Shown here: positions 24,924 through 56,605 of the stretch, piece after piece | How positions within the stretch are numbered: position 1 is the first letter of the stretch | Layout: the number at the start of each line of letters is the position of its first letter | Origin: Mesorhizobium huakuii | GTDB taxonomy: Bacteria > Pseudomonadota > Alphaproteobacteria > Rhizobiales > Rhizobiaceae | Length of the DNA stretch: 64,000 nt | Direction: 5' to 3' | NCBI RefSeq assembly: GCF_014189455.1 | Contig: NZ_CP050299.1 | Location: 248,001 to 312,000, forward strand | Notes under the pieces: generated by a model | What the model was told of the DNA's origin: nothing | Seen by the model: the letters and a program-made list of their open reading frames with translations, nothing else | Databases searched by the model: none | Position numbers and translations under genes: made by a program

Positions 24924-24932
24924 CTGGCTTGC
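24924..24932. repeat. Target-site duplication of the IS256-family element (right copy)
   Basis: Second copy of CTGGCTTGC. The TerB-N reading frame resumes from this copy as LAGSRSDPDAY. Confidence 0.9.
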
Positions 24933-39292: not shown

Positions 39293-42200
39293 ATGTCGGA
39301 AAGCGCGTTTCGATTTCTGCTGCAAAAGGACGCGCAGCCGTTTTGTCCGTCGACATGCTTTATCGTCGCAGATCCGGAGATCAACGATCGCAAGGTTTGG
39401 ACACTAGAATTGGAGCGCCCCAAAGACGCTGAGTGGGTCTTGCAGATAGATGACATGAAAGATTGGATGCTGCACGGCAAAAAGGCAGTGCGGCAGATGT
39501 TCTACGACACGCAGAACCCGCGCACCCCCTTCCGGGAACTGGACCGCGACGAGGTCTTCCGCGAATATCTTCGGAAAATCCTTGAGAAGCTGCCACCGGA
39601 GTATCAACAACGTCGAAAGTACGCGTTGATGCCGTCGATCGCCGAAGACAAGACGCGCATTCGGTATAAGGAAGCAGTCGAAGCGGCAATACCGGGTGTC
39701 ACAATCATCCCGGAACCCGAGATGGTGGCCGAGTATTTCCGCCTGTTGAAGCGCACTCTGAAGCTCGAGACTGGAGCGAACAACGTCATCCTCGTGATCG
39801 ATGTGGGCGCCTCGACAGCGAACATGACGTTAGTCCTCAGTCGACGCGACGGAACCATCGTCGATATCGATTTGAAAGGCGATCAGCGTGATCTGCGCAT
39901 CCGAGCGCTCCGCGGAGACAGCGTCGCAAACGCCGGTAGGTGGGTCGATTCGCATCTCGCCGAGGTGTTAGGTGTTTCTGAGTCGCTAATGGACAAAGAC
40001 CGCGAAAATCGTGACCGGGTCCTTAGAGCAATAGAACATGCAAAGGTAAAAGCGAGCGAGACAGGAAGAGACGTCCTTGTCGAGATACCGTCGGCCGGAG
40101 CACCCATCTCCATCAGCCAAGCAACGTTGAAGTCAGCGTCAAAGACCCTGGCGGAATCGCTACGACCGCTTTTCGAGAATTTGTGCGAGCGTCTATACGA
40201 CAATCAAACGTCGAGCGACGACGCGAAACGAAAAAGCGCGCCTCGTCTAAGCGAACGCCAAGTGACCTCTGCCGGCGAAGCATACCGTCTCATCGACGGC
40301 GTCTTGCTGGCGGGAGGAACGAGCCTTCTCCCGGGGTTCGAGGAAGCAATGCTCGCCTCGTTCTTCCCCGGGGAACACCGGCCGTCGGTGCTTCGCGTAG
40401 GCAGTTCCTTCGCGGTCGCGGCCGCCGCCGGTGGCCTTGCACACATTCTCCACAACTACGACCCGCCCCGGCTCCGTGAGCCGGATGGTCAAGGCGGAAA
40501 TGTCTTGAGGCCTGCATTGGAATCGACGCTCTCGTACCCCCTGATCTTGGGAATTAAGCAGCCGGCGGAGCTCGAGCAGCAGGTAAGTGTGCTGGATCCC
40601 AACGACCCGTTCTTCGATGATGGAGGTATACGGCCTATTGAGAACCTGCCTTCGCTCGCGACAGGGGCGCGTCCGAAGATGCGGTTGGTTCCCGGTGGAG
40701 CGGCGGGTGTAGCGGCGCGCCGAGGGCGCAAGTTCAAAGCGATGGAGGTCCGCCAGTCCCCAGGAAAGATGCAAATCGAGTGGGATGCCGTAAAGCAGAG
40801 GGCGACCGTTCATTCCGATCAGGTGAACCATACCCGGTCAACGCTATGGATCGACGCTAACATTCTCCGGAAGCGTCAAGAAGAGGCGCTGAACCCTTTC
40901 GATGGTCCCGTGCCTCCTGGTGCGTTGGCGGTCGACGCAGCGGAAGACGTCATTCTCGATCTCGGCATGTCCAAAATCGTCGCATTGACGGCGGATCGTG
41001 GCTGGGTGTCCGCAGAGGAATTGGAACGCCTTGTGCAAGATGGACTCGATGAAGCGCAATTAAGCCCGCATTCCGGAAGACCAGATGAGACAGTAGAAGA
41101 GACGGTTGTCAGGGATGGTGCAGGCCCGAGGATGTCGGACTTGCCCGCCGACCAGTCATCTCATGCAGAAAGTTTGGATCAGACATCCATACCGGCGGCC
41201 ACAGTCGGCGTGGAGCACGTCACCTATGAATCCAACGGGAAAGGTGCTGGAAGTCTCGGGGATGGCGGTAGGTCGATCGAACCCGTTGCCGTCGAAATCC
41301 TCGTGCCGACGGATTTCGCACGAGACGAAAGTTTCACTTGGGGCACGCGGATATCGGACGCGCAATTCTCCAACGCCCTTGAATCTCTCAGAGACGTTTT
41401 GAAGGGCGCCGCACCGCACCTAAATTTCGATGACATCGTCGTAACGCTACTCGCGCTCGCAGTACGCCCGGTTGTGCTGCTTGCAGGCCCACCTGGCTGC
41501 GGCAAGACCACGTTAGTTCGCACAATGGCTCGCATCCTTGGGGTGGAGACTGGCAAGACCTTCCATGAAATCGCCGTCCAAGCGCACTGGGATAGCGATA
41601 GCGTCCTTTTCGATAAGAACGGTCTGCTGTTTAATCTGTTAGGAGATCAAGCTCTTTCCCATATCGTCCTGTTCGACGAATTCAACCTCACCCGGCCAGA
41701 ATACTATCTATCGCGCTTGTTCCATGCGTTAGACGGCGGCAAAGGCGTGATCGCACCTGACATGAAGATTGCGCCGTGTCGGGTGCTTGGCACGATGAAC
41801 ATCGATGACTCTTCGCGCCCACCGTCGCCGAAAGTGATCGACCGTTGCTTCCTTGTCGAATTGGCGCAGGTCCCATGGGACGTTGAGCGACCTGTCTGCC
41901 TGCCCGACTTCAGTACGATCCATCCTCTCCCGGGGCTCCCGCACGTGCCTGCCGATGATGCAAGTAGCGACGAGCGTATCGACTCGGTTCTGAAGGCTCT
42001 TCACGTCGCGGTCGCCGAAAACGACCTTCGGCACGACCTGCTTCCTTCCAGACGAGCGCTCGCGGACATCAAAGCGCTGCTCGGCCTCTACCACAGATTG
42101 GATCTGCAGGGCAGGGACCTTCTTAACCGAGATGATTTAGTGGATCGCGTTCTGGCAAGCCGTATATTAATAAAGTTATCAGGAGCCTTCGATCAAATCC

Positions 42201-42322
42201 AGCCGGCTCTCGACGCCTTGGACAAGGCTGTCGATGGCATGGAAGAATTGCAGCGGACACGTCGACGTCTGAAATTGGCACGGCAGCAATCCCGCCTCGG
42301 ATTCGTTTCTCCGTGGCATTAG
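39293..42322 (+). CDS. Hsp70/actin-like domain fused to a McrB-like AAA+ ATPase
   Basis: A 1009-aa protein. Residues about 20-380 match the Hsp70/actin ATPase fold: VILVIDVGASTANMTLVLS near 165 (phosphate-2 loop), DGVLLAGGTSLLPGFEEAM near 337-355 (adenosine loop) and SFAVAAAAGGLAHIL. The usual phosphate-1 strand (DLGTT) is not visible at the N-terminus. After a linker (about 450-670), residues 690-1000 form a McrB/MoxR-type AAA+ domain: Walker A LLAGPPGCGKTTLVRTMA near 731, Walker B VLFDEFNLTRPEYYLSR near 790, sensor RVLGTMNIDDSSRPPSPKV and RCFLVEL. ATG 39293 follows AAAGG and an in-frame TAA at 39281. It overlaps the nuclease gene by 10 bp. The fusion is unfamiliar to me. Confidence 0.8.
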   Translation: MSESAFRFLLQKDAQPFCPSTCFIVADPEINDRKVWTLELERPKDAEWVLQIDDMKDWMLHGKKAVRQMFYDTQNPRTPFRELDRDEVFREYLRKILEKLPPEYQQRRKYALMPSIAEDKTRIRYKEAVEAAIPGVTIIPEPEMVAEYFRLLKRTLKLETGANNVILVIDVGASTANMTLVLSRRDGTIVDIDLKGDQRDLRIRALRGDSVANAGRWVDSHLAEVLGVSESLMDKDRENRDRVLRAIEHAKVKASETGRDVLVEIPSAGAPISISQATLKSASKTLAESLRPLFENLCERLYDNQTSSDDAKRKSAPRLSERQVTSAGEAYRLIDGVLLAGGTSLLPGFEEAMLASFFPGEHRPSVLRVGSSFAVAAAAGGLAHILHNYDPPRLREPDGQGGNVLRPALESTLSYPLILGIKQPAELEQQVSVLDPNDPFFDDGGIRPIENLPSLATGARPKMRLVPGGAAGVAARRGRKFKAMEVRQSPGKMQIEWDAVKQRATVHSDQVNHTRSTLWIDANILRKRQEEALNPFDGPVPPGALAVDAAEDVILDLGMSKIVALTADRGWVSAEELERLVQDGLDEAQLSPHSGRPDETVEETVVRDGAGPRMSDLPADQSSHAESLDQTSIPAATVGVEHVTYESNGKGAGSLGDGGRSIEPVAVEILVPTDFARDESFTWGTRISDAQFSNALESLRDVLKGAAPHLNFDDIVVTLLALAVRPVVLLAGPPGCGKTTLVRTMARILGVETGKTFHEIAVQAHWDSDSVLFDKNGLLFNLLGDQALSHIVLFDEFNLTRPEYYLSRLFHALDGGKGVIAPDMKIAPCRVLGTMNIDDSSRPPSPKVIDRCFLVELAQVPWDVERPVCLPDFSTIHPLPGLPHVPADDASSDERIDSVLKALHVAVAENDLRHDLLPSRRALADIKALLGLYHRLDLQGRDLLNRDDLVDRVLASRILIKLSGAFDQIQPALDALDKAVDGMEELQRTRRRLKLARQQSRLGFVSPWH

Positions 42323-43903
42323 CAAAGTCCGAGATAGAATTCGCGCGTGTGATGGGCGACGACGGCGTCGCCGTCCAATATCCATGGGATCCGCATGCCT
42401 GGTACATCATACGCGACGACTGCCCATATCTAGATCTGCTTGTCAGAGGTTTTCCCGCCCAGGCCAAAGAGGGTCCGAAGCTCGAAGCCCTTGCTGAGGT
42501 GGCACCGGAAGGAAGGTCGTGGCAGCGTTGGGATTTGGGAGCAGAGCTAGCCCGCAATCGCCGCTTTGGTGAAGTCATTTTGCATTTGAAAGTCCCCAAG
42601 AACTACACGCTGCGTTGCTACGTCATCCCGACTTTGTTGTTCGGCTACCGCGATGTAGTCGCCATGATTGAGGACATTGAGTCCGAGCTGGACGTCTCTG
42701 CTACCTGGGATGTGATCACCGAGCGCCCGGACCGATCATGGAGCCGGCGACGCAACAGTGGTGGATATACAACCCCCACGGAACTGGTCCAGTTGGTCAA
42801 CGACGAGCTGCGATCTGCACGCTCGATACGACGCGATCCGTTTGAAGAGTTGGGCCCTCGCTCCAAGCGCGACGTGCCGTTACCCGAGAATGCGATCGTC
42901 TCTCACTGGGCAATGCTCAGACACCGCCATCTCCAGCAATCCGCCGATTTGGTAGCAAAGGAGCTTCGATTGTTGAGGGAGAGAGCCGCAAGGAAGAATC
43001 CGGACGCGCGGCAAAAGAAGATCAATGATGAGATTGGCCGGCTTGAAAAGCTTGGCCTCAGTATGACGGAATTACGAGGTGTCATTTCCCTTCTCGGGAA
43101 TGATATTGAATTGCTGACTAGTATAGATTTAGCCCCGGTATTCCAACGGGATCATCGTTTGCGCCAACTTCTTCGAGCATTCGCCCCCCGCGTTTCCGAG
43201 GCACTTTCCGAAGTCGAGTCCTCAAGGTCTTCATATCCCCCAGTCTATATGAACACCCTATGGGAACTCTGGGGAGCCGTGTGGCTGGCCAAAGAATTTC
43301 GAAGCTTGGGCTTTACCGGCACGTGCTTCGCGGATCCGGTCGACATGCTGAAATCTTGTTCATGGCAGTTCCAGAGGGGCGAGGTCGTTTTGGAGCTGGA
43401 TTATGAAGCGGAGGCTGCTTTGATTGACTACGAGCGAATTCCGCCGGTCCATGATCGGGGAATGCCCGCTTTGGAGTGGGCTGCCCTCAACCAGAAATTC
43501 GACGAGGATCGTCCCTATTTCGGTTCAGGTCTTCGATGTTCGCCAGACTATTTGATCAGGATCACCTCGCCCGCGGGGGCGATTCCTGATGGTCGGGGAC
43601 GCCTGCCTGGCGAGCCCTAAGCACCATGGAACGCCGCCGGACAGACTCGACACCAAACCCTACACGGTGGAGCATTACAGGCGCACCATAGCGTGGGCTG
43701 CAGCAGACCAGGTGGTCAGATGCCATCCGCTCGGCGGCTTTGTGCTGTTTCCCCCGCCGGCGGCAAAGTGGAGCTATCTTCAGCAACTCCCGGAAGCGTC
43801 CGACTGCAGTCTCCTGTGTCCGCACCCTCTAGAGCAGAATGAGGCAGGCGCACGGCTGGCCAATCTCATCTCTATAATATCGCCCGAGATCCGCCAATCA
43901 TGA
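42313..43903 (+). pseudogene. McrC/DUF2357-like PD-(D/E)XK nuclease, frameshifted near its end
   Basis: The first 420 codons (GTG 42313) resemble McrC-like partners: ILHLKVPKNYTLRCYVIPTL, HWAMLRHRHLQQSADLVAKE, and the nuclease entry TLWELWGAVWLAKEFRSLGF with VVLELDYEAEA and CSPDYLIRITSPAGAI. Here the frame ends with RGRLPGEP at 43620, but the overlapping frame from about 43586 continues the fold: LMVGDACLASPKHHG (the D...K part of the PD-(D/E)XK site) to a stop at 43903. One extra C near 43584-43587 (ATTCCTGATG) explains this. Intact, it would be about 530 aa. It is coupled to the Hsp70-McrB gene, as McrC is to McrB. If the frameshift is real, the nuclease lacks its catalytic lysine. Confidence 0.75.
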
Positions 43904-44164: not shown

Positions 44165-45001
44165 ATGTCATGCCACGGCAAAAAACAAAAAGAGAACGTG
44201 ACCTACCGCATTTTCGGATTGCAATCGATCGAGGAATTATCGGTGAAGAACTCTGGAGTTCCTGATGCGCCCGACTATCTCGTTCCACTCACACGAAAGA
44301 CGAACGACGGCACGACATACTATCGGCGTCCGGAACTCGAGGCAGAGATCCGCCGGGCTCTGCTTCGCCCCATGCAGGAGCTGGTGTCTGGCTCAACACC
44401 TGCCTCCGACGAATGCCTGCTCTATTTCCTTCGCAACTTCCAGCCTAATGGCGGTCGCAGTCCTACGTACGAGTCCATCCTGCTCGAATTTCTCAAAAGG
44501 GTGGATCAGCGAGCCATCAAGCGGACAGGCGGAATCCACTCCGAACGACGCACGGAAATACGGGGCGATCTGCGGGTGTGGTTCATTGATAAGATCGCAA
44601 ATCAGAATGACCTGCTCGACGTCTTTGAATTTGCCTTCAACCGCGCCATCAAGGGCAAGATCATCGACGCTATACGCCGCTATCAGGCCCGTGATGCAGC
44701 CGAGATTCCAGCGTCGGTGTTCTCTTCAGATGACGACGACGGAGATGACGACGGCAGCGAGGCGATTGCCGCGCGGTCGAACCTGCATCGGCGCACACAC
44801 GCTGAGACGATGCTCGAACTGCGTGACGCACTTGACCAGCTTTCGGACAAAGAACGTCGCGCCCTTTTGGCAACGGAATATCTTAAGGTCGACCAGAAGG
44901 AGGCCGGTAGAATGCTTGGGGTTTCCGCTCGTCGAATACGACAGCTTCTCGAAAGTGCCTACGACAAGCTTGAGACGATGAAGAAGGGAGCTGAAGAGTG
45001 A
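44165..45001 (+). CDS. Sigma-factor-like DNA-binding protein
   Basis: A 278-aa protein. The C-terminal third is a sigma-70 region 4-type helix-turn-helix: LRDALDQLSDKERRALLATE followed by KEAGRMLGVSARRIRQLLES. The middle (about 95-180, VFEFAFNRAIKGKIIDAIRR) could be a divergent region 2. An acidic stretch, SSDDDDGDDDGS, separates them. It overlaps the next gene by 4 bp (GTGA), so it is the first gene of the string through 51552 and may regulate it. It could also be a non-sigma HTH regulator. Confidence 0.7.
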   Translation: MSCHGKKQKENVTYRIFGLQSIEELSVKNSGVPDAPDYLVPLTRKTNDGTTYYRRPELEAEIRRALLRPMQELVSGSTPASDECLLYFLRNFQPNGGRSPTYESILLEFLKRVDQRAIKRTGGIHSERRTEIRGDLRVWFIDKIANQNDLLDVFEFAFNRAIKGKIIDAIRRYQARDAAEIPASVFSSDDDDGDDDGSEAIAARSNLHRRTHAETMLELRDALDQLSDKERRALLATEYLKVDQKEAGRMLGVSARRIRQLLESAYDKLETMKKGAEE

Positions 45002-45552
45002 GCCAGCCCGCCCCCGACCTCTCCGAACTATTGACTGAACTCGCTGCGACGACCGATCTGTCGGCCGAGGCCGTCGCCCACGCGATCGAAGCCTATCCAG
45101 CGCATCGCGAAGAAATCCTTCGCTTCGCCATAGAATGGCATGCCGGCGCTGAAAGCGACGACTCCAATGTTCCGCCGCTACCAGGCCCTGATCTTTCTGC
45201 TTTTGGCTTGGAACCAATCATCGATCCGTTCGCCGGCAGGACCGGCGCCGAACTCAATGCAGCGGCCGCGGCGTGTGACATTCCGGTTTCGATCCTGATC
45301 AAGCTTGAGCAACGATCGATCGAAGTCGGCACCGTCCCTCTGCTTTTATTGCGCAGTCTCTCGGCTTTTCTGGGCACACAACTCAATAACCTTCTTGGCT
45401 TCTTGTCACTCGATCCGACGTTGTCCACATCGGCGAGCTATCGATCGGACAAGCCGCCGGAGGTGGCGCCAAGAGTGTCATTCGCCTCGGCGATCCGCTC
45501 GACGAAAATGGATGAGGGTCAACGCGCTCGCTGGCTGGCTCTTATCGAATAA
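44998..45552 (+). CDS. HTH-like protein upstream of the IrrE-helicase fusion
   Basis: A 184-aa protein. Residues about 85-145 (GAELNAAAAACDIPVSILIK, then VPLLLLRSLSAFLGTQLNNL) look like an XRE-type helix-turn-helix, and the N-terminal part has acidic helices. An XRE-like regulator directly before an ImmA/IrrE peptidase gene is the usual arrangement, in which the peptidase cleaves the regulator on a signal. GTG 44998 overlaps the previous stop and only 6 bp separate it from the next start. Assignment to XRE is by position and pattern, not by a strong motif. Confidence 0.6.
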   Translation: MSQPAPDLSELLTELAATTDLSAEAVAHAIEAYPAHREEILRFAIEWHAGAESDDSNVPPLPGPDLSAFGLEPIIDPFAGRTGAELNAAAAACDIPVSILIKLEQRSIEVGTVPLLLLRSLSAFLGTQLNNLLGFLSLDPTLSTSASYRSDKPPEVAPRVSFASAIRSTKMDEGQRARWLALIE

Positions 45553-45558
45553 CGCGCC

Positions 45559-48500
45559 ATGGAAAACTTCAGCCTTATCCGCCTAGCCGCGAACGAACTA
45601 AGGGAAGCAATCGATCACGGCCTGGCTGAATTGCGGGCCGGCGCGATCGTCGAACGTGCGCTGGCCAAGCGGAGCCTGAAGCTTGAGGAGCTGCATGTCG
45701 GAGACGCGACGCTCGCCGGATGCCTCGGTGTCTTCAATCGGAAGTATGGTCACGTATTTGTGCAAGAGGATCTCGAGCCTCCCACTAAGCTTGAGGTGAT
45801 CGCTCATGAGATCGGGCATGAAGTCGTTCACAACGGCGACGTGGCTATGGTTCGCAAGGACTATGGTTCACCCGGGCCGGGCGATCCGGTTTTGCGGGTC
45901 GAAGCCTATGGCGTGAAGGAGCGTCGCGAGGCCCAGGCGAACGTTTTTGCCCGTGAGCTCCTGCTGCCGAGGGCTCTCGCCCGCCGGCTCTTCCTAGGCG
46001 GAATGCGCGCTAGGGCAATCGCCGAACAAACAGGTCTCAATCTTGCGCTCGTGTTTCAGCAGCTGACCGATGCATTACTTCTGCCCGAACCACGTCCACC
46101 CGCGCCCGCACGTCCTGACAAGTTTAGGAAGCTCGACGACTCGCAGAAGTATGCTGCCGACTTCCGTGGTAAGGCTTTATTGCTCGAGGCTGGACCAGGC
46201 ACCGGCAAGACCCGAACTCTGGTCGAAAGGATCGTTCAGCTCATTCAGAGCGCGGAAGCTGCGCCTTCGGAGATTCTGGCGCTGACCTTCTCGAATAAGG
46301 CCGCAGGGGAACTCATCGATCGCGTAGGCAAGGCAGTGGGGAGCCCTGCAGCTAACATCTGGACCAGCACCTTCCATGCCTTCGGTCTTGAGCTGCTGCG
46401 CAAGCACCACATTTTGTTCGGTCTCTCGCAGGATCCGCCTCTTGTCGATGGCAGCCGTGCCATCGACATGCTTGAAGAGGCATTGCCGACGCTCCCCATT
46501 TTCTATCACCAGAACCTGTTTGAGCCAGCGCTCGCCCTTCGGGAAATCCTCAAGGCAATCTATCGCGCAAAGGACGAACTAGTCGGCTGGCAGGCCTACA
46601 CCAACCTCGCTGGCGCCATGGCCGAACGCGCCGACCCAAGCGATGAACAGGCGGTGATCGCAGCGGCAAAAGCCAAGGAAGTGGCGCTGGTCTATCGTCA
46701 CTACCAGGAGCGCCTACAAGAGCTCAAACAGGTCGACTATGGCGACCTCATCATGCTGCCGGCACTACGCCTGCGGGATGACGCGGACTTTCGGGCGAAG
46801 CTTCAAGCCCAGTATCGATGGATCCACGTCGACGAATATCAGGACATCAACCGGGCCAGCGCGGTTCTGATCAAGGGGTTGGCCGGTGACGGCCGGCAAC
46901 TGTGGGTCGTCGGCGATGCGCGGCAGTCGATCTACCGCTTTCGTGGCGCCTCCGTCCGCAATGTGGCGCGGTTCGGTGAGGACTATCCCGACCACGAGAA
47001 GGCGCCGCTCAGGGTCAACTACCGATCGACGAAAAGGATCATCGACACCTTCACCGGCTTCAGCCGGACCATGAAGGTCTCCGACTTTTCGTTGCCGCTC
47101 AACCTGGATCCCGATCAAGATGTACTTGGCGAAGCGCCTTCGCTTAGCGTCGCCAGCGACGCCGACGACGAGTATTCACGCCTCACCGCCAGCCTCCGGG
47201 AACTCGAAAAGGGCGGCATGCCGCTCCGGACTCAGGCTGTGCTCGCGCGCAGCAATGGTACGCTTGCCCGCGTAGGAGAGGAACTCGAGGCTCGCAACAT
47301 CCCTATCCTTTATCTCGGGCCATTATTCGATCGCCCGGAAGTCAGGGACCTTCTCTCTCTTCTATCCCTCTTGGCCAGCTCCGGCTCGACGCTCATGAGG
47401 GTTGCCGGGTTCCAGCAGTATAAGGTGAGCACATCGGATATCGTCAAAGTTCTGTCGGTCGCGAAGGCCCTCGAGATCCGAACGATAGCGATGCTGGCGA
47501 GACTGGAAGAGGTCGTTGGCCTATCGGTCGAGGGACGTGCCGGGTTGGCCTTGATTGCAACGCATCTCTTGGGCCTTACGGAAGGAAGCACACCTTGGTT
47601 CGTGCTCATGGAATACCTCTTTGAGCGCAGCAACTATGTCGTGGGTCTGCTTCAGGGCAATACGCCCTCTGCCGATATGCGCCGTGTCGCCGTTCGACAA
47701 CTGGTAGAGGCTCTTCGCTCGATGCCAAAGGGCGGGACGGGTCGCCGGTCGCCGATCGCCCGGGGGCTGGCGCGCATCCGTCACATGGTCCTGCTGGCCG
47801 ACGAGCGAGAGTTGCGCCGTCTGCCCGACGAGCTTTCGGACGTCGATGGCGTCCATCTGCTTACCGTGCACGCGAGCAAAGGTCTCGAATTCGAGGCCGT
47901 GCATCTGCCAGGCCTCAAGAAGGGCGCTTTCCCCGCACCCAATCGCGCGGACAGGTGTCCATCACCTGACGGTCTCGTCGCCAACCCGATCGAGCCAGAC
48001 GCGCATGAGGCTGAGGAAGAGTGCCTGTTCTTCGTCGCCATGTCTCGGGCGCGGGCAATTCTCCGCTTCTATCGGCCAGCTACCAGCAACGGCAAGAACG
48101 CCAATCCCTCGACCTATCTCGAGAAACTGCACATTGGCTCGCTGACGACGGCGCAGATCACGCGGTCGGTGCCCAAGCCGATCTTCACCCCACTCAACGA
48201 GCCTCCCGCCCCAACGCTAACTGCTCGCGACATAGAGGACTACGAACGGTGCCCTCGTCGCTTCTACTACGAGCGCGTGGTGGGCATGCGCGGCGACGCG
48301 GTCGAGAGCACGTATCGCGCGGCGCATCGATGCCTGCTGCAAGTGATCGAGGCTGCGAGAGAGTCATCAACGCCGCTCTCGGAAGACGCGATCACCGAGA
48401 TTTTTGAAAACGCTTGGGCGGAAAGCGGCCTGGTCGATCACCTCTATGAGCAACCCTATCGCGACCTGACCCAGACCATGCTGTCCTCGTTGCGGCCCCT

Positions 48501-48912
48501 TTTGGCCCGCGGGTTCAAGAAATCAACACCGATTGTTGTGCGTCTCGGCGCCACGGACATTGAAGTCCATCCAGACCAGGTGGAAGTGGGCGGTGTCGGG
48601 ACTACGCTCCGGTCGATAAGATCGGGGCGCCCGTCGTCAACCGAGCCGGATAGACTTGCAAACTCCCTGTTGCTAAAGGCAGCCGAGCAGCGCCACGGCG
48701 CCGGAGCGACTGTTGAGTCCTACCATATCGCCACGGGCGAGACGACATCCGTCGTCCAAACGCCGGCAAAGCTTCGAAACAGGATCGAGAACAGCATAGA
48801 GATTGCTGCCGCCATCGGTCGAGGCGAGTTTCCGCCTAAAAGCGATGACTGGCAGTGCCCGCGCTGCCGGTACTTTTTTATGTGTCCGGCCCCGGCCGAG
48901 CCAATCGCCTAA
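45559..48912 (+). CDS. ImmA/IrrE peptidase - UvrD helicase - AddB-like nuclease fusion
   Basis: A 1117-aa three-part protein. Residues 1-175: ImmA/IrrE zinc peptidase with HEIGH at 83-87 and EAQANVFARELLLP (Glu124). Residues about 195-880: superfamily 1A helicase with AGPGTGKTRTLVERI (GPGTGKT 212-218), ILALTFSNKAAGELIDRV, DYGDLIML, IHVDEYQDIN, VGDARQSIYRFRGA, VHLLTVHASKGLEFEAVHLP and VAMSRARA. Residues about 890-1117: RecB/AddB-type domain with YERCPRRFYYERVVG and a terminal C-x2-C-x5-C (CPRCRYFFMC), the iron-sulfur pattern of AddB. The usual D-x-K core seems replaced (LRSIRSGRPS), so nuclease activity is doubtful. Peptidase and helicase motifs look complete. It follows the HTH gene by 6 bp. 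Confidence 0.85.
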   Translation: MENFSLIRLAANELREAIDHGLAELRAGAIVERALAKRSLKLEELHVGDATLAGCLGVFNRKYGHVFVQEDLEPPTKLEVIAHEIGHEVVHNGDVAMVRKDYGSPGPGDPVLRVEAYGVKERREAQANVFARELLLPRALARRLFLGGMRARAIAEQTGLNLALVFQQLTDALLLPEPRPPAPARPDKFRKLDDSQKYAADFRGKALLLEAGPGTGKTRTLVERIVQLIQSAEAAPSEILALTFSNKAAGELIDRVGKAVGSPAANIWTSTFHAFGLELLRKHHILFGLSQDPPLVDGSRAIDMLEEALPTLPIFYHQNLFEPALALREILKAIYRAKDELVGWQAYTNLAGAMAERADPSDEQAVIAAAKAKEVALVYRHYQERLQELKQVDYGDLIMLPALRLRDDADFRAKLQAQYRWIHVDEYQDINRASAVLIKGLAGDGRQLWVVGDARQSIYRFRGASVRNVARFGEDYPDHEKAPLRVNYRSTKRIIDTFTGFSRTMKVSDFSLPLNLDPDQDVLGEAPSLSVASDADDEYSRLTASLRELEKGGMPLRTQAVLARSNGTLARVGEELEARNIPILYLGPLFDRPEVRDLLSLLSLLASSGSTLMRVAGFQQYKVSTSDIVKVLSVAKALEIRTIAMLARLEEVVGLSVEGRAGLALIATHLLGLTEGSTPWFVLMEYLFERSNYVVGLLQGNTPSADMRRVAVRQLVEALRSMPKGGTGRRSPIARGLARIRHMVLLADERELRRLPDELSDVDGVHLLTVHASKGLEFEAVHLPGLKKGAFPAPNRADRCPSPDGLVANPIEPDAHEAEEECLFFVAMSRARAILRFYRPATSNGKNANPSTYLEKLHIGSLTTAQITRSVPKPIFTPLNEPPAPTLTARDIEDYERCPRRFYYERVVGMRGDAVESTYRAAHRCLLQVIEAARESSTPLSEDAITEIFENAWAESGLVDHLYEQPYRDLTQTMLSSLRPLLARGFKKSTPIVVRLGATDIEVHPDQVEVGGVGTTLRSIRSGRPSSTEPDRLANSLLLKAAEQRHGAGATVESYHIATGETTSVVQTPAKLRNRIENSIEIAAAIGRGEFPPKSDDWQCPRCRYFFMCPAPAEPIA

Positions 48913-48998
48913 AAAAATCGGCACGGGCACTTCCGCTTTCCCGTCTCTGCAACGATCAGCCCCACAGAAGCCGCGGCAAAGTGCCGGTCGGCAGTTAG

Positions 48999-49700
48999 AT
49001 GGGTGATCACATGTCCCTTCAGGACGTCAGCCAGGACGCCGATCAGCGCGATCGCTTTGCCTACCTGGTCAATTCCGTTCCCAATCGTTCCCGTGACCAC
49101 CAGATCGAAGGTCGCGAGATTCTTGAAAAGTCCGGCTATCTGCCGGCCGACCAGCATATTCTGATCCAGGTCCTGGATTGGGGGACCCAGTCGATAGGGC
49201 TCAACGAAAAGGTGGATCTGCGCGAGGAGGGCATCGAGCAGTTCCGCGCTTTTGCGGGCGACCGTATCTACGCCTTCACGGTGGACCTGCGTGGGTATGA
49301 GTGGGGTGCATCCACGATCGCGGAAGCCGAGCTGCGGGGCTATGTAGGTCTCAGTGAAGATCGGATCTTCACGCTCGATCGCGCGGATACACCGGACAAG
49401 CTGATCGAGGACGGTAGCGATATCGACCTCGACGACCGCGGTGCCGAGCGTCTGAAAGTGGTCGCCCGCCCGATGGTGACTGTGAAAGTCAACAACAAGC
49501 CGGTCAATTTGCGTTTCGGCTGGCATACCGGTGCTGAGATCAAGGCGGCCGCCATTGCCCAGGGTGTCGAAATTCGCCTGGACTTCACCCTCGACGAGGA
49601 GAAGCCGAACGGCGACACCCAGGTGATCGGTGACGATGACCCGACCTTCATCTCGGGAGGCGAAGTCTTCGGTGCCGTCGATCATCACGAGGACAGCTAA
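48999..49700 (+). CDS. Multi-ubiquitin-like protein (three tandem beta-grasp repeats)
   Basis: A 233-aa protein with three repeated ubiquitin-like units: about residues 20-88 (AYLVNSVPNRSRDHQIEGRE, ending EGIEQFRAF), 90-158 (RIYAFTVDLRGYEWGASTIA, ending RGAERLKVV) and 162-230 (MVTVKVNNKPVNLRFGWHTG, ending SGGEVFGAVD). This is the pattern of the bacterial multiubiquitin family encoded beside E2 and E1/JAB genes. It ends HHEDS without a terminal Gly-Gly, so conjugation, if any, would need processing or a non-canonical route. ATG 49011, preceded by GGTGATC, is an alternative start. The stop overlaps the E2 gene start by one base. Confidence 0.85.
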   Translation: MGDHMSLQDVSQDADQRDRFAYLVNSVPNRSRDHQIEGREILEKSGYLPADQHILIQVLDWGTQSIGLNEKVDLREEGIEQFRAFAGDRIYAFTVDLRGYEWGASTIAEAELRGYVGLSEDRIFTLDRADTPDKLIEDGSDIDLDDRGAERLKVVARPMVTVKVNNKPVNLRFGWHTGAEIKAAAIAQGVEIRLDFTLDEEKPNGDTQVIGDDDPTFISGGEVFGAVDHHEDS

Positions 49701-50116
49701 TGACTGGCCTCAAGGCAGGTGTTGCGAAGGCCATCGAGGGCTTTCGTAACCACTTTCCAGACAACCGTATCGAGGTCTGCGCCACCGCCGATGGTGCAGC
49801 ATTTGTCATCGTCGAGGATGTTCCTCTCGGTCCTCCCTACCAGCAGGCTAATACTTGGGTTGGCTTTTTCCTGTCGACTGCCTGCCCTGACGACGACACC
49901 TACCCGTTCTACGTGCGGGGCGACCTCGCACGTCTCGACAAGGCTATGCTCAAGAACCCCTTGCACCCCGGCAAAGTGTTCCCGGATGCCGAGGCTACCA
50001 TGTCCAGACGCGCAAGCGTCATGGTGTCGAGGCGCCAGCGCAACCAATCGTGCTGGTCCTACGAACCGCCGCTCCTCAAGCTCCTCACGGTGATCAAATG
50101 GATGTTGCAGCAATGA
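49700..50116 (+). CDS. E2-like (ubiquitin-conjugating fold) protein
   Basis: A 138-aa protein in the E2 position of a multiubiquitin operon. Features consistent with a bacterial E2/UBC-like fold: IVEDVPLGPPYQQANTWVGF, a PLHPGKVFPD segment like the HPN-type region, and a C-terminal helix PPLLKLLTVIKWML. Cysteines are at 27, 62 and 118; none sits clearly after the HP motif, so the classical catalytic cysteine is not evident. ATG 49700 overlaps the previous TAA and its stop overlaps the E1 start, so translation is coupled across all three genes. Family assignment rests partly on context. Confidence 0.65.
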   Translation: MTGLKAGVAKAIEGFRNHFPDNRIEVCATADGAAFVIVEDVPLGPPYQQANTWVGFFLSTACPDDDTYPFYVRGDLARLDKAMLKNPLHPGKVFPDAEATMSRRASVMVSRRQRNQSCWSYEPPLLKLLTVIKWMLQQ

Positions 50117-51552
50117 GACACACCTGCCAGCTGCGGATGACGCAGGAAATGTACGACGAACTTGTCGCCCACCTTTTTCCTGGCGACGGCGATGAACATG
50201 GCGCCGTGATCCATGCCGGCCTGCTCGAGACCAGGGACGGGCCGGTGCTGACCGCACGTGACTTGATCTTGGCCGTCGAGGGTCGTGATTGGGTGCCGGG
50301 TACGCGCGGCTATCGCAAACTGCTTGCGCCATTCATCTCCAAGCAGGTGCGACGTTGCCGAGACGAGCGTTTGGTCTACCTAGCCGTCCACAACCATCTC
50401 GGCACGGATCGGGTCGCCTTCTCCGATGTTGACATCGAGTCCCACGAGCGCGGTTTCCCGGCGCTGCTCGATCTCATCGACGGGATGCCCGTTGGTTCGT
50501 TGGTATTTGCGCAGAATGCTGTCGCCGGCGATATCTGGCTTCCCGGCAAGAGCCGCCTCCACATCGACCGGATGGTCGTTGTAGGCTCCTGCCGCACCGA
50601 GTTGCGTCCGGCGCCATCGCCGCTTGAGAAGCCCTTTGACCTCCGCTTTGACCGCCAAGTCCGCGTGTTCGGCGCGTCCGGTCAGGCCATCCTCGCCAGA
50701 TCGAAGGTGGCGATCATTGGCCTGGGCGGGGTCGGCTCCATTCTCGCCGAGCTGCTGGGTCGGCTCGGGGTCGGCTCGTTCGTTCTCGTCGATCCCGACC
50801 GGGTCCAGCCGAGCAACTTGCCTCGTCTCGTTCATGCGACCGGTTGGGATGCTATGACCTGGCTGGTTGCGCCCGGGCGGCCAGAGTGGATGCGTAGGCT
50901 TGGGACATCTCTTTCAACGCGCAAAATCGACCTCGTGCGCCGTGTCATTTCCCGTGCAAACCGCAAGGCCACGATCGACCGCCACTTCACCAGTATGGAG
51001 GAAAAGGCGGTGGTCGAGGCGCTCAAGACTTGTGACTACGTTTTTCTTGCTGCCGACGGGCATCGGGCACGGCGCCTCTTCAACGCGGTGGTTCACCAGT
51101 ATCTTATTCCTGGTGTACAACTGGGCACGCGCATCCAGACCAATGACGAGACTGGCACGGTGGTCAACATCCACACCAGCGCTCGTCTCGTCACGCCGGG
51201 ATGCGGCTGCCTGCTTTGCAATCAGGCGATCAGCCAGCAGCGATTGCGCGACGAGAGCATGAGCGGCCAGATGCGCCAGGCGCAGCGCTATGTTGATGGC
51301 GATGACGCCTCGGCACCAAGCGTCATTACGCTCAACGCTCTCAGCGCTTCGCAGGCCGCAAACGACTTCTTGTTCTACATGACTGGTCTAACCAGGGCCG
51401 AGGCTTTCCAAGGCAACGTTCAACAGCACCCGCTAGATCGGCGGGTGAAATTTGTCATGCCGCGGAAGGATGCCAGCTGTGCCGATTGCGGCAATGAAAA
51501 GCAGAGCCGGCTGTCGCGTGGCGATGGAGCGTCGTTGCCCCTCGTCGACTGA
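50113..51552 (+). CDS. JAB/MPN peptidase - ThiF-type E1 fusion protein
   Basis: A 479-aa protein. Residues 1-160 are a JAB/MPN+ domain with Glu28, HNH (93-95), and SDVD (104-107), the JAMM zinc site of deubiquitinase-like isopeptidases. Residues 180-450 are an E1/ThiF adenylation domain: GLGGVGSILAELLGRLGVG (203 on), LVDPDRVQPSNLPR and FLAADGHRARRLFN. CxxC pairs at 366-369 (CLLC) and 456-459 (CADC) form the usual structural zinc site; Cys364 is a possible catalytic residue but this is uncertain. ATG 50113 overlaps the E2 stop (ATGA) and is chosen over ATG 50098. The protein could activate and process the multi-ubiquitin-like protein. Confidence 0.88.
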   Translation: MRHTCQLRMTQEMYDELVAHLFPGDGDEHGAVIHAGLLETRDGPVLTARDLILAVEGRDWVPGTRGYRKLLAPFISKQVRRCRDERLVYLAVHNHLGTDRVAFSDVDIESHERGFPALLDLIDGMPVGSLVFAQNAVAGDIWLPGKSRLHIDRMVVVGSCRTELRPAPSPLEKPFDLRFDRQVRVFGASGQAILARSKVAIIGLGGVGSILAELLGRLGVGSFVLVDPDRVQPSNLPRLVHATGWDAMTWLVAPGRPEWMRRLGTSLSTRKIDLVRRVISRANRKATIDRHFTSMEEKAVVEALKTCDYVFLAADGHRARRLFNAVVHQYLIPGVQLGTRIQTNDETGTVVNIHTSARLVTPGCGCLLCNQAISQQRLRDESMSGQMRQAQRYVDGDDASAPSVITLNALSASQAANDFLFYMTGLTRAEAFQGNVQQHPLDRRVKFVMPRKDASCADCGNEKQSRLSRGDGASLPLVD

Positions 51553-51732
51553 GGGTGCCGCTTGTGGGTTTTGACAACTGCCCCCTCCAACGCGATAGGA
51601 GGCAGCAAACATGTGAGCAGAGGCGCTCGGTAGAAGGCCGTCCGAGCCAAGGACAGCCAAAACCGCCTATCGTGAAATTCTTCTATCGAGCCGCGGTCGA
51701 ACACTCGTATGTTTGTGACCGGAGACCGCCCA

Positions 51733-52992
51733 ATGGCATTTCGATTCGTACACACGGCCGATATTCATCTCGACTCGCCACTGCGTTCGCTGGCGATGCG
51801 AAACCCCGACCTTGCCGAGCTCGTCGGAGACGCCAGCCGTCAGGCGTTTGTCTCGATCGTAGATCTCTGCCTTGCGGAACGTGTCGATGCCCTGGTCATT
51901 GCCGGCGATCTCTATGATGGCGACCAGACGTCGATGAAAACGGCGCGGTTTCTGGCGTCACAGATGACACAACTTCACCAGGCCGGCATCAGGGTTTTCA
52001 AGATCCGTGGCAATCATGACGCCATGTCGCGGATATCGAAACAGCTGGTGTTTCCGGACACTGTGACAATCTTCAGCGGCCGTCCCCAGTCGGTGCTGCA
52101 GACAGCCGGCGGGCTCGACGTCATGTTCCATGGCTTGAGCTTTGCCAGCCCCAAGGCGCCGGACAGTCTGCTACCAAAGTACCCTGCTGGCCGTGAAGGC
52201 GCGGTCAATGTCGGCATCATGCATACGAGCCTGGCCGGATCGCCCGGCCACGACGTCTATGCCCCCTGCAGCGTCGCCGACCTGCACAGCCATGGCTTCG
52301 ACTACTGGGCCCTTGGGCACGTCCATGTCCGCCAGGTCCATCCCGGGGCGAGCACCGTGGTGATGCCAGGAATTCCGCAGGGCAGGGACATCAATGAGGC
52401 CGGGGAGAAATCCGTCACACTGGTGACGATACGAGACGACCGCACCATTGAGGTCGAGGAGAGGCTGACCAGTATCGCGCAATTCGAAAGGGTGAACGTC
52501 GATCTGACCGAAACGGTGGAGTGGTCCGAAGTCGTCGGGCGAGTCCGCTCCGCGCTCGAAGATTTGCGCGCTTCTGTCAGGTCCCGTCATATTGTGGTCC
52601 GTCTGGGCCTGAGCGGGGCTTCACCCTTATCCTGGGCGCTGATCCGTGACCGCGACCTGTTGCTCGCGGAAGCCGAGCAGGTCGCGGAACACACCGGGGA
52701 CACCTGGGTGGAGAAGCTCGAGCTTAACGTTGCTCCACCCGCGGCCGAAACATCCGAGGGCGTTGCTGATCCGATTTTCGAGCTCGCTCAATCCATGCGC
52801 GACGATGCCGGTTCGGAAGCTTTCCGTGCCGAGGCAAGGGCGCTGGTCCAGAAGATGATCGCGGATCTTCCGCCTGACGGGCGCGATTTCGCCGGTAAGG
52901 ACGAGGCTGGGCTGGAGTTGTTCCTCGACAGGGTGCTTGCCAACGGCGCCGATCTGGTCACCGCCCGCCTCAAGGCCGGTGGGTCACAATGA
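51733..52992 (+). CDS. yhaO: SbcD/YhaO-like DNA repair metallophosphoesterase
   Basis: A 419-aa calcineurin-type phosphoesterase. Metal-site motifs are HTADIHLDSP, VIAGDLYDGDQTS, KIRGNHDAMS, and WALGHVHVRQ, followed by a C-terminal capping domain. YhaO-type proteins work as nuclease subunits with a Rad50/SbcC-like partner, here the next gene, which it overlaps by 4 bp. ATG 51733 (MAFRFVHTADIHL) places the motif at the usual N-terminal position; an upstream in-frame ATG at 51709 adds eight unconserved residues. It may belong to general DNA repair rather than to the island systems. Confidence 0.88.
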   Translation: MAFRFVHTADIHLDSPLRSLAMRNPDLAELVGDASRQAFVSIVDLCLAERVDALVIAGDLYDGDQTSMKTARFLASQMTQLHQAGIRVFKIRGNHDAMSRISKQLVFPDTVTIFSGRPQSVLQTAGGLDVMFHGLSFASPKAPDSLLPKYPAGREGAVNVGIMHTSLAGSPGHDVYAPCSVADLHSHGFDYWALGHVHVRQVHPGASTVVMPGIPQGRDINEAGEKSVTLVTIRDDRTIEVEERLTSIAQFERVNVDLTETVEWSEVVGRVRSALEDLRASVRSRHIVVRLGLSGASPLSWALIRDRDLLLAEAEQVAEHTGDTWVEKLELNVAPPAAETSEGVADPIFELAQSMRDDAGSEAFRAEARALVQKMIADLPPDGRDFAGKDEAGLELFLDRVLANGADLVTARLKAGGSQ

Positions 52993-55900
52993 GGCTCCGG
53001 CGACTTGATCTGATCCGTTATGGCAAGTTCACCGACAGGACGATCGACTTCGGGCCAAAACCGGATTCCGGTCCCGACCTGCATATCGTCTTCGGCCTGA
53101 ACGAAGCCGGCAAGTCGACCGCGCTTTCCGGCTATCTCGATCTGCTGTTCGGCATCGAGGAACGCAGCCGCTACAATTTCCTGCACGAGTACAGCGCGAT
53201 GCGCATCGGCGGGGTGCTCGAACTTGGCGGCGCGGAGCACTCGTTCACACGCACGAAACAGCGCACCAACCCATTGTTGAACGCGAATGGCCAACCGGTC
53301 AGCGAAATGGCGATATCAGCACATCTCGCCGGGCTGTCTCGCGACGCATACGAGACCATGTTCTCGTTGGACGACGAAACGCTGGAAGCAGGTGGAAAAT
53401 CAATCCTGGAATCGCGCGGCGACCTAGGCAAGCTGCTGTTCACGGCCAGCGCTGGCCTCGGGCACGCAAGCGATACATTGAGCGTGCTGGAGGCCGAAGC
53501 GGACAAGCTCTATCGCAAGCAGGCACACGGAACCGAGCTTGCGCTGCTCAAGAAGCGGCTTGCGGAACTGAAGTCCGGGAAGGAGGCAATCGACACCTTG
53601 GCGTCGACGTTCGAAACTCTCGAGACAGAGCGTCTGGACGCGACGGAAAAATACGACCGCAGCATCGCCGAACGGTCGGTGCTGTCGGCTCGGCTCGATA
53701 CGATCGCGAAATATCTTCGCGCGATCCCGATCCTTGCTGATATCCGACGTAAGGAAGCCCAACTAGCCGAGTTGCCTGAGATCGCTTCACCGTTACGGAC
53801 CTGGACGGGCAGCATCGCGGACATGATCGAGACCGACGCCAGTCTGAGAACGCGGCTATCCGCGAGTGGGGACGAGCTCGAGCGGGTGACGACGAAAATC
53901 GCCTCGGTCGATGTGGACGCGGTTATCCTTGCGATCTCCGAACGGGTCCGCGGCCTGGCCGACCGCAAGGTGCGCCACGTCTCGGCCGGGCTGGACCTGC
54001 CAAGTCGCAGGACGGAGCTGCAAATTCTCGACAATGCCGTGGCAACCTGCCTTGCTTCCCTTGGAAGGGCGTCGGAGCAATACCCTGCCAAACTGCTCTT
54101 GCCTGCTGCAACCATTGGCGCTGTGCGCACCATGGTCGAGCAGAGATCCGGGATCGTAACCCGGGTGCGCGTCGCGCGCGACGAGGCGGCGGCAGCCGCT
54201 GATGCGCTGCAGGCGGCACGCGAGCGGGTCGGCGAAGAACGAGCCGTGCCCGAGCCTGCCAGGGCCAGGCTGGTCTCGGCTTTGTCTACCGCAAGGGCCA
54301 GCGGGTACGTGAGGGAGACCAAGGCGGCGCGCGAGGCCGCGGATGCGGGAGCAATTCGATGGGAGGCCGCGATCGCGCGCTTGCATCCCTGGTCGGGAGA
54401 TGCCCAGGCATTGGCCAGGATCGCCATTCCGAATGCTGGACGGCTTGGCGCATGGAAGGCGCAGGCCGCAGAGCTGGGGAAGAGCAGTAGTGTCCTTTGC
54501 GAACGTCTTGCCGAGCACCAGGGCAATCACGATTTGTTTTCGGCGCGGCTGGATGCCCTTCGTGCCTCGGTCGATGTCACCGACGATGATGCGGCGAGCG
54601 CCATTCGGCGTGCCCGGGACGAGGCCTGGGCAAGGCATCGCCATGACCTGAGTGGCGATACGGCGGATGATTTCGCGGCATTGCTGGCTCGAGACGACAG
54701 CGGCGCGGCGGGCCGTCTGGCCAACGCCCGGGAGCTCGTTGAGATCCGCAGCACAAACCGCAACCTCGCAGAAACCGCCGCCACCATCGCGCATACGCGC
54801 GACCAACTTGAACGCAACAGCTCAGATCGGGAGGCTGTGCCCTCGGAAGTTCTTGCAGTCGCAAGAGACCTGCTTGGAGAAATCCCCGAGACATCCCCCG
54901 AACAGCTGATCGAACTGATCGAGGATCGCATTGCTGCCCGGATCGATGCGCTCGCGGCCTGGGAGGAGATCGAGCTTTCCCGCAAGAAGACCGAGCGGGC
55001 GGTTGATGAGGAAGGCCGAATACGCCTGGAGCTGAGCGGCGCACGGGCGAGCGTTGGCGTCGGTTCGGATCCTGGTGACAGCCTGGAGACGGCCATGGCC
55101 GTGGCAGAGCTGTTCCTTGAGAGACAATTCAAGGTGGACGCTGAGCGCACCGAGGCGCTCAAGACCGTTGGCACAAGGCAAGAGGATCTGGCCGCTAGAC
55201 GCCGAGCCATCGAAGTCGCTGAGCGACGTGAGGATGAATGGCTAGCCGGCGTTGCCGAAGCGCTCAAGGGCACCTGGCTCGAGAGCGGCATCTCGGCGAC
55301 CGGCGTCGGGGGGCGTCCTCGATCAATTGGCTGAACTGTCCAAATGTCTTCAAGACCGGGACGCCATGCGACTCCGTATCGAGAAGATGGAGGCCGACAG
55401 GGACAATTTTCTGGTCGAGGTTACCGCCGTTGCAGCCGAAGCGGGCGAGGCGGCCAACGACGACGAACCGGAACAGCTGGCGGTTCGGCTTGCCGAGCGC
55501 CTGGAGCGCGCCGAGCGCATGCGCGAGGCCAAGGCAGGCCTCGTCAATGACCTGCAGCGTCTGCAGGATGCGCGTGAGATCCTCGATGCCGAGATTGCGG
55601 CACATGAGCGCCGCAAAAACGAGGTCCTCAGCGTCTTTGGCGTGGCCACGCTGGCGGACGTCGTGCAACGCGACGAACTGCTGCGCGACAGGGATCGTCT
55701 GCGCTCAGCCGTGGCCGAACTTGAGGAGCAGGTGGCGTCCGGGCTCGCGGTGGAAGGGTTCGAGCAGGCGCGTTCGATATTGGATGCTGTCGATCTCGAC
55801 AGTCTCGCAATCGAGAAGGCCGAAGTTGAGCAACGGCTTCGCGACCTTGACGAGGCGTTGCAGCAACAGCTCATTCGGCAGACGCGCGCGACCGACAAGC

Positions 55901-56460
55901 TGGACGCCATTGGCGGCGACGCCGCTGTTGCCCGCATAGATGCCGAACGGCGCACCGTCCTTCTGGAAATCGAGGAAAAGGCCGTCCGTTATATCGAGCT
56001 GAAACTGGGAATAATGTCGGCGGGGAATGCTCTGCGTCTCTACCGCGAGCGTCACCGCTCCGGGATGATGCAGCGCGCATCAGACGCATTCGCCCTCATG
56101 ACGCGCGGCCAGTACTCTGGCCTGACTACCCAACCCGTGAAAGGTGGGGAAGTGCTCATCGCATTGCAGCGCGACGGGCAATCCAAGGTCGCCGACGCGC
56201 TGTCGAAGGGCGCGCGTTTTCAGCTCTACCTGGCGCTCCGGCTCGCGGGGTACTACGAGTTTGCGCAGTTTCGGCCCTCCGTGCCCTTCATCGCAGACGA
56301 CATCATGGAAACCTTCGACCATGTCCGTTCCGAGGAGGTCTTCAGATTGTTCGGGGAAATGGCAAATGCCGGTCAGGTGATCTATCTTACGCATCACCAG
56401 CACCTATGTCAGATCGCCAAGGCTGTTGTGCCGAGCGTAGCGATTCACGAACTTGGATAG
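52989..56460 (+). pseudogene. yhaN: YhaN-like SbcC/Rad50 ATPase, frameshifted by a G run
   Basis: The N-terminal part reads MRLRRLDLIRYGKFTDRTID, with the P-loop VFGLNEAGKSTALSGYLDLL, followed by long coiled coils. The C-terminal part ends with KGARFQLYLALRLAGYYEFA (signature region) and FIADDIMETFDHVRSEE (Walker B). The halves are in different frames. At 55308-55313 a run of six G breaks ISATGVGG; five G would continue as GGVLDQLAELSKCLQDRD and restore a protein of about 1156 aa. Both parts are well preserved. With YhaO it would form an SbcCD-like DNA end-processing complex. Whether it is dead or mis-sequenced is open. Confidence 0.85.
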
Positions 56461-56528
56461 TAATGGGTGATGGTGTCGTAACCGCTCTACGTCGATGAGA
56501 GTGTTTTGTGCTACCCCGAGCCATGCTG

Positions 56529-56556
56529 GTCCGAAATATGTGGACATTTTTCGGAC
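56529..56556. promoter_or_regulatory. AbiE operator 1 (distal inverted repeat)
   Basis: Two 13-bp arms, GTCCGAAATATGT and ACATTTTTCGGAC, are separated by GG and have one mismatch. It lies about 50-75 bp before the antitoxin start. Related to operator 2 and to the orphan site at 1230. Confidence 0.8.
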
Positions 56557-56575
56557 ATTCCAAAGGGCTGGCATT

Positions 56576-56605
56576 TGTCCGAAATACGTATACATATTTC
56601 GGACA
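56576..56605. promoter_or_regulatory. AbiE operator 2 (overlapping the antitoxin start)
   Basis: A 30-bp dyad with no spacer: left arm TGTCCGAAATACGTA, right arm its reverse complement with one mismatch. Its last base is the A of the antitoxin ATG, so a bound repressor would block transcription or translation start. AbiEi antitoxins are known to bind paired inverted repeats in their own promoter. Confidence 0.85.

Follow-up and report, generated by a model that had tools for sequence, protein, structure and literature searches.

A three-gene controller, made up of a sigma-like factor, a helix-turn-helix (HTH) protein and a protease-helicase fusion, is followed by a ubiquitin-like (Ubl) conjugation cassette in Mesorhizobium huakuii (GCF_014189455.1; 8.45 Mb in 4 contigs). 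The six genes lie on one strand within a 64,000-nt stretch, positions 248,001–312,000 of contig NZ_CP050299.1 (forward strand), which is referred to here as the window and in which all coordinates are given. Judged from the sequences, the pairing of this controller with a Ubl output is real and widely conserved. The locus is proposed to be one defence-type regulon, consisting of a controller and its output, in which a protease switch would release the sigma factor; we give this reading a probability of about 0.6. The linkage of controller and cassette, the exchange of cassettes, a promoter-like element in both places, the invariant protease and ATPase residues and the lost nuclease residues are taken directly from the DNA and its translations.

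A more specific proposal, to which we give somewhat less than even odds, is that the motor-fused protease frees an extracytoplasmic function (ECF)-type sigma factor to drive Bil, Bub-like and multi-Ubl/DUF6527 cassettes interchangeably from a dedicated common promoter; the controller would then be the regulatory half of many Bil loci. What triggers bacterial ubiquitin-like systems is largely open, and a conserved sensor-controller would supply the sensing half. If true, the controller would offer a testable trigger, the DNA met by the helicase, and a readable promoter element by which more members could be found.

Linkage of controller and cassette

A check of open reading frames and junctions confirmed all six genes, with frames, strands and junctions as first given in an earlier note made from the letters of this DNA. 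The sigma-like gene (44243..45001, plus strand as are all six) overlaps the gene of protein 2 (44998..45552) by 4 bp (44998–45001), and the fusion gene (45559..48912) begins after a 6-bp gap. An 86-bp gap (48913–48998) precedes the multi-Ubl gene (48999..49700), which overlaps the E2-like gene (49700..50116) by 1 bp at 49700; the latter overlaps the JAB-E1 gene (50113..51552) by 4 bp (50113–50116). Family scans return the same domains that the earlier note had called, i.e. sigma region 4, IrrE, UvrD, PD-(D/E)XK, multi-ubiquitin and ThiF.

The census of homologous loci covered 117 loci, a number that includes the window and six UvrD-only loci; they form 91 clusters at 80% identity. Neighbouring genes were assigned with iterated profiles built from the loci themselves. 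A cluster was taken to have room if 1.5 kb was available downstream or a cassette was found, and a cassette was counted if a Ubl or E1 gene lay within 3.5 kb downstream. Among core and broken-core clusters, 72 have room and four do not; such a gene is present in 66 of the 72, and in 65 of 71 when the window and the loci L031–L035 are excluded. With the same exclusions, sigma and HTH genes are found upstream in 63 of the 66 clusters that have 1.5 kb upstream. The earlier note had put forward co-occurrence of fusion and Ubl genes beyond chance as a check; with 65 of 71 clusters linked, the front genes and the cassette belong together, and a chance neighbourhood is ruled out.

Six core clusters are without a cassette (L075, L147, L185, L135/L167, L155 and L158). 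In L075 an IS66 element interrupts, and a Ubl gene is found 6.4 kb further on. In L147, L185, L135 and L167 the HTH gene and fusion are present but neither a sigma gene nor a cassette was recognised; in L147 and L185 another small gene occupies the sigma position.

Of 150 relatives, the source genome counted, 37 carry the multi-ubiquitin family PF14452, and 40 loci around its matches (up to 20 kb) were used, with G061, G084 and one of G087 left out. Five of the 40 (L031–L035) show the fusion upstream of the Ubl gene, at about 37% identity and, in L031, in two frames. A tblastn search did not find the full-length fusion in the other 35; thus most multi-Ubl loci of the genus are without it. Stand-alone HTH and ImmA pairs were not flagged before the other multi-Ubl loci by a motif scan of one strand with mechanically called open reading frames, in which the Ubl gene was unplaced in 3 of 35 and which is not evidence of absence.

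A profile (A2) built from 11 fusions, two of them (L032, L035) found via Ubl, matches 15 of 397 genomes of the order, 5 of 385 of the class and 6 of 398 of the phylum, the source genome counted each time. Of 584 stretches confirmed in the genome-contig scan the best 80 were used, which favours closer relatives. The controller is found in Proteobacteria, Acidobacteriota, Chloroflexota, Planctomycetota and on one cyanobacterial plasmid.

Among distant fusion clusters (517–734 bits) a cassette is present in 0 of 9; the HTH gene is kept in six of the nine and the sigma-like gene in four of those six. UvrD-only loci with room likewise show no cassette (0 of 4). Because distant fusions keep the sigma and HTH genes without a cassette, the three-gene controller may predate its link to Ubl genes or may have other outputs. 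The L189, L191, L193 and L197 loci, from Chloroflexota, Armatimonadota and an unclassified metagenome-assembled genome, are distant fusions with sigma-like and HTH genes and without a recognised Ubl cassette.

A search of plasmids for the fusion yielded 178 records, of which 86 reach ≥80% coverage. Eight plasmid neighbourhoods were read; two genes, profiled as sigma-like and HTH, precede the fusion in all eight, and the Ubl cassette continues after it in seven, the eighth being the interrupted L075. That many fusion homologues are plasmid-borne would suit a toxin-antitoxin role, in which the HTH and IrrE parts stabilise the cassette on plasmids, as in the proposal for the Synechocystis multi-ubiquitin locus. 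In the account of Kopfmann 2016, COG2856/DUF955 loci stand beside 70% of PF14452 proteins, and HTH/DUF955 pairs beside PF14452 genes are read as toxin-antitoxin (PMC4963859). For the controller described here this seems extremely improbable: the protease lies within an 1117-aa motor, and this, the sigma factor and the common promoter-like element fit control better than addiction, while PprI and CapP are described as derepressing proteases (PMC10904395, PMC13373217).

The controller proteins

The sigma-like protein is above both family cut-offs for region 4 of ECF sigma factors (Sigma70_r4 in Pfam, 34.1 bits against a cut-off of 24.1; TIGR02937, 45.8 against 42.9). The profile of its family aligns to ECF sigma chains over regions 2–4 (E-values of 0.0013 and 0.0033). 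The open reading frame called in the earlier note is real, but its start is probably the GTG at 44243 rather than 44165, where the longest frame begins: the first 26–39 residues of that frame are without counterpart in most homologues, a GAGGA lies ahead of the GTG, and the promoter-like element P1 (44202–44232) falls inside the longest frame, upstream of the GTG.

Protein 2, encoded by a 184-aa gene, gives no Pfam family. Fold comparison shows an Xre-type HTH fold resembling CapH, DdrO and ImmR, with modest scores (modest Z). ImmR is a substrate of ImmA/IrrE-type proteases. CapH and DdrO are likewise described as substrates of such proteases (PMC10904395, PMC13373217), and protein 2 is the presumed substrate in the window. 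Sequence look-ups in PDB gave nothing useful for protein 2, the E2-like protein or the protease part alone.

The 1117-aa fusion contains, by Pfam, a Peptidase_M78 domain of the IrrE/ImmA type (residues 64–159; 45748..46035, plus strand), UvrD (193–477), UvrD_C and PDDEXK_1 (887–1110; 48217..48888, plus strand). The zinc ligands and HEXXH residues H83, E84, H87 and E124 (HEXXH at 83–87, E124 the third ligand) are invariant in 49 of 49 aligned fusions. Walker A is invariant in the 49 as well, as are all positions of the DEYQD motif except Y427. Invariant zinc ligands, combined with the likeness of protein 2 to CapH, DdrO and ImmR, make cutting of protein 2 by the IrrE domain plausible.

The C-terminal domain retains the PD-(D/E)XK fold, but not its catalytic residues. 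The D-x-K strand reads R-x-[IV]-[RK]-[TS]-G or similar in homologues and RSIRSG in the window. Judged by eye, the [DE]-x-K motif is absent in 49 of 49 aligned fusions, and none was seen in eight distant homologues, where the alignment of that region is poor. None of the 49 varies at Cys 898, 1100, 1103 or 1109, and the eight distant homologues retain 1100, 1103 and 1109. The four Cys are positioned like those of AddB-type iron-sulphur domains. An AF2 model of the fusion (pLDDT 88.6, pTM 0.90) gives UvrD/PcrA, AddA and AdnAB as the best Foldseek folds.

These features bear on whether the fusion acts as a weapon in its own right. A helicase-nuclease effector that destroys phage DNA and is joined by the Ubl set as another weapon would be in keeping with the fold match to AddA/AdnAB/RecB and with the RTasHel and GajB models that match the helicase part. 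The loss of D-x-K throughout the core set and the retained Cys motif make this very improbable, and an active nuclease is not supported. Lost D-x-K, retained Cys and UvrD/AddA-type folds together argue for a DNA-gripping motor with a dead nuclease domain. We infer that the helicase may sense foreign DNA, as first suggested in the earlier note.

Promoter-like elements and the proposed circuit

The gap between the fusion and Ubl genes (median 84 bp in 64 loci) carries a bipartite element with the consensus TT[TA]CCGG-N16-CGAT[TC] (TTWCCGG-N16-CGATY), the spacing of which resembles sigma -35/-10 elements; presumably the neighbouring sigma factor reads it. A matrix was trained on the gaps of 70 other loci, with the window and the regions upstream of sigma genes outside the training. 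It exceeds 9 bits in 48 of the 70 training gaps as against 8 of 700 shuffles, and 39 of the 48 have the same spacing. In the window, P2 (ACTTCCGCTT-N12-AACGATCAG, 48929..48959, plus strand) lies between the fusion and Ubl genes and scores 16.3 bits. P1 (CCTACCGCAT-N12-ATCGATCGA, 44202..44232, plus strand), which is also found by the pattern scan, scores 13.98 bits. P2 and P1 rank second and third over both strands of the 64 kb; the first-ranked position is inside an insertion sequence (IS) transposase gene.

Upstream of sigma genes, scores above 13 bits are found in 15 of 23 loci with Bil-type cassettes (7 of 460 shuffles, 4 of 145 coding stretches) and in 4 of 31 with multi-Ubl/DUF6527 cassettes (8 of 620 shuffles, 8 of 194 coding stretches). 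For type C without the window the count is 1 of 4 (1 of 80 shuffles, 0 of 24 coding stretches), or 2 of 4 above 10 bits, and for loci with other or no cassettes it is 0 of 5. A regular expression, post hoc in that it was written after inspecting these sequences, the window included, matches 37 of 85 gaps, 16 of 71 upstream regions and 17 of 2108 coding windows. Best 16-mer matches between upstream region and gap are in many loci no better than in shuffles. The pattern TWCCGCWTT-N13-CGATC has three perfect matches in the 8.45 Mb, two of which are P1 and P2, from which it was derived, so that the count shows rarity only.

Sigma-70 consensus promoters are absent from 43.9–51.8 kb, where 2.1 are expected, and terminator-like hairpins in the region number 5 against 6.7 expected. 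One of these, a weak hairpin with a T run (48848..48871, plus strand), lies within the 3′ end of the fusion gene. Sites of this kind occur in 30 of 72 homologues and in 62 of 288 coding controls, a mild enrichment.

The arrangement as a single long operon was revised, since the 86-bp gap bears its own promoter-like element. A promoter or terminator splitting the string at 48.9 kb had been taken in the earlier note as a sign of two separate units. A promoter-like element is indeed present there, but a copy also stands at the sigma gene, so one regulon fits better than two systems. Thus the six genes probably form two transcription units controlled by one factor.

In the proposed circuit, the controller would consist of a sigma factor of the ECF type, an HTH protein of the Xre type that restrains it, either as a repressor of the same promoters or as an anti-sigma factor, and a protease-helicase sensor whose dead nuclease domain would serve to grip DNA. 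An encounter of the motor with single-stranded DNA or abnormal ends, such as phage infection or DNA damage may produce, would activate the protease, which would cut the HTH protein and free the sigma factor. The freed sigma factor would fire P1, driving the controller in a positive loop, and P2, driving the Bub-like cassette, and the JAB-E1/E2-like set would attach Ubl to a target. We infer the promoter activity, the cleavage, what is sensed, the pairing of sigma factor and promoter, the Ubl target and phage defence itself. Both PprI and CapP are described as activated by single-stranded DNA (PMC10904395, PMC13373217). Because the controller precedes several kinds of Ubl cassette and the element precedes both halves of the locus, sensing of DNA and tagging of proteins look like parts of a single defence circuit.

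The same circuit could instead serve a DNA-damage or stress response in which the output modifies host proteins. CapH/P, CapW and CapK/S respond to DNA damage and a defence role of Bub is unproven in the account of PMC13373217. This is given a small chance: a homologous controller precedes Bil, which the same source places among known anti-phage pathways (PMC13373217), and an AbiE-type pair lies nearby in the window.

Cassette types, surroundings and known systems

The multi-Ubl protein of the window is a three-repeat protein of the BubA/polyUbl type with the tail ..SGGEVFGAVDHHEDS. It shows Multi_ubiq (PF14452) in three stretches at 64.4 bits and matches multi-ubiquitin structures and a BilA (PDB 9cd2, 9d59, 8u38, 9d5b). 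The tail after GG, E(V/R/K)FGAVD(H/N)HEDS, is common to the window, L126 and L127. The 138-aa E2-like protein gives no Pfam family and no PDB match; its homologues are found in L126 and L127, and the Cys of the window SCW motif is missing in L127. A catalytic E2 Cys is thus not supported, no Cys being conserved across the three, whereas five Bil-type E2 seeds have a common Cys (LPCDR or VPCDR). Position, size and missing conserved Cys match the inactive E2/RWD type, without a profile or PDB match. The JAB-E1 fusion carries a JAMM protease with an intact signature, E..HNH..SDVD (by eye), followed by a ThiF-type adenylating domain (95.5 bits).

Of the 66 cassettes in the census, 34 are multi-Ubl-E1-DUF6527, 26 are Bil-type, 5 are multi-Ubl with JAB and 1 is less complete (L181). 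In the JAB class the window, L126 and L127 have a fused JAB-E1, and L154 and L162 are otherwise arranged. The Bil type was checked by PADLOC in the Aminobacter locus L071, where near-full-length matches are found to BilA (1.4e-45), BilB (1.1e-56), BilC (8.3e-62) and BilD (3.7e-164); other loci were assigned by our own profiles or by BilD. The L071 cassette shows no NCBIfam match above cut-off, and two Bil-type genes show no PDB match. A BilD profile matches 59 of 397 genomes of the order at E 1e-3 and exceeds 400 bits in seven (in G366 in two pieces). The fusion stands in front of six of these seven; for the seventh (G472) none is found in the 3.1 kb available upstream, and none is near the weaker BilD fragments of G433 and G442.

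In a FastTree tree of 79 fusions, which has long branches and an unsure deep root, the window fusion clusters with those of L126 and L127 at a support of 100, and these three join the L071 fusion, which is Bil-linked, also at 100. Cassette labels change 12 times on the tree, where 4 is the least possible and the shuffled mean is 37.8. In the JAB-containing group at least three changes are forced by supported branches, with L154 and L162 in that group not strict Bub. Since labels change across supported branches, outputs appear to have been exchanged while the make-up of the controller stayed constant; if true, one controller changed its Ubl output more than once. The distant fusions L190 and L182 fall beside Bil-linked ones, so some cassette absences may be losses.

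A similar sensor with exchangeable conjugation cassettes might also be expected if the cassette acted on the sensor, Ubl being attached to the helicase-protease or to protein 2 as a primer or brake, with expression control secondary. Against this, Hor 2024 is said to have identified Bil targets as phage proteins. We regard action on the sensor as unlikely. A precedent for it is type II CBASS (cyclic-oligonucleotide-based anti-phage signalling system), in which Cap2 is described as attaching the cyclase (PMC10097602, PMC10449767).

Several neighbouring genes were recorded. A DUF6088 gene and an AbiEii nucleotidyltransferase gene, of the AbiE type, are found at 56506–58361, and the same pair is near the controller on the Aminobacter (L071) and Pseudohalocynthiibacter (L073) plasmids. 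At 51709–56460 an SbcD/Mre11-like gene is followed by a YhaN/SMC-like gene apparently split into overlapping frames (52989–55334 and 55252–56460); an SbcD/SMC pair also adjoins the controller in L073. The first protein encoded at 39293–43903 (1009 aa) has a MoxR/AAA domain, and its N-terminus gives a weak match of the actin-like (BeeR) kind; next come a protein of 435 aa that has no family and a short overlapping open reading frame. A protein with TerB_N, TerB and TerB_C domains is encoded at 24634–26814. Elsewhere, multi-Ubl/DUF6527 proteins (L032, L077, L076 and others) often end in ..FNVTRTVQS or close to it, without a terminal Gly-Gly. In the Mesorhizobium loci L031–L035 the multi-Ubl/E1/DUF6527 cassette is followed by an open reading frame of 885 aa (about that size in others) and a UvrD-like one of about 1150 aa (L032, 2135–8184).

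Among known systems, type II CBASS does not fit the locus: no CD-NTase is among the matches listed for the ten window proteins of 39.3–55.3 kb, and Cap2 gives only a weak E1-core match to the JAB-E1 protein. The Ubl and E2-like genes matched no PADLOC model at E 0.1. JAB-E1 matches, among 25 of 32 families listed, are all E1-E2, the best at 46.8 bits as against 544.7 for a BilD. Thus the window cassette is not Bil by best match, although a homologous front module precedes Bil-type cassettes in 26 clusters and at six of the seven strong BilD matches in the order.

The fusion shares its motor fold and PD-(D/E)XK chassis with AddAB/AdnAB/RecB and with GajB of Gabija, but is without the nuclease residues and has an added protease. 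The six genes include no AddB/RecC partner. In CapH+CapP and DdrO-IrrE/PprI, as in the window, an HTH protein of similar fold adjoins an ImmA/IrrE-type HEXXH protease, a likeness known from sequence and fold. The window protease, however, forms the N-terminus of an AddA-like motor instead of being encoded by a stand-alone CapP gene, and the locus also has a sigma factor and two copies of the promoter-like element.

The cassette corresponds, by its predicted proteins, to the Bub-like set of operon row 6e of Iyer 2006, which lists the same three parts, multi-Ubl, inactive E2 and JAB-E1 (PMC1779556); the window likewise has a multi-Ubl protein, an E2-like candidate without a conserved Cys and a JAB-E1 fusion matching the Citrobacter BubCD 9ea4 at 98.6 bits over residues 7–420. 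According to the 2026 CapK/CapS paper, 219 of 544 Bub operons are accompanied by CapW or CapH+CapP and 59 by CapK+CapS (PMC13373217). The earlier note had known of no description of the combination. The trio itself has been known since Iyer 2006, with BubCD in PDB, and HTH plus ImmA-like control of Bub operons is published (PMC13373217). Full-text literature searches, with the main Bub and Bil papers outside their scope, gave the combination in no title or abstract start among the matches listed; a motor fusion, the sigma gene and a controller shared with Bil were likewise not met in the searched literature, and their novelty is provisional. It is the sigma factor and the motor-fused protease that set this locus apart from Bub and row 6e.

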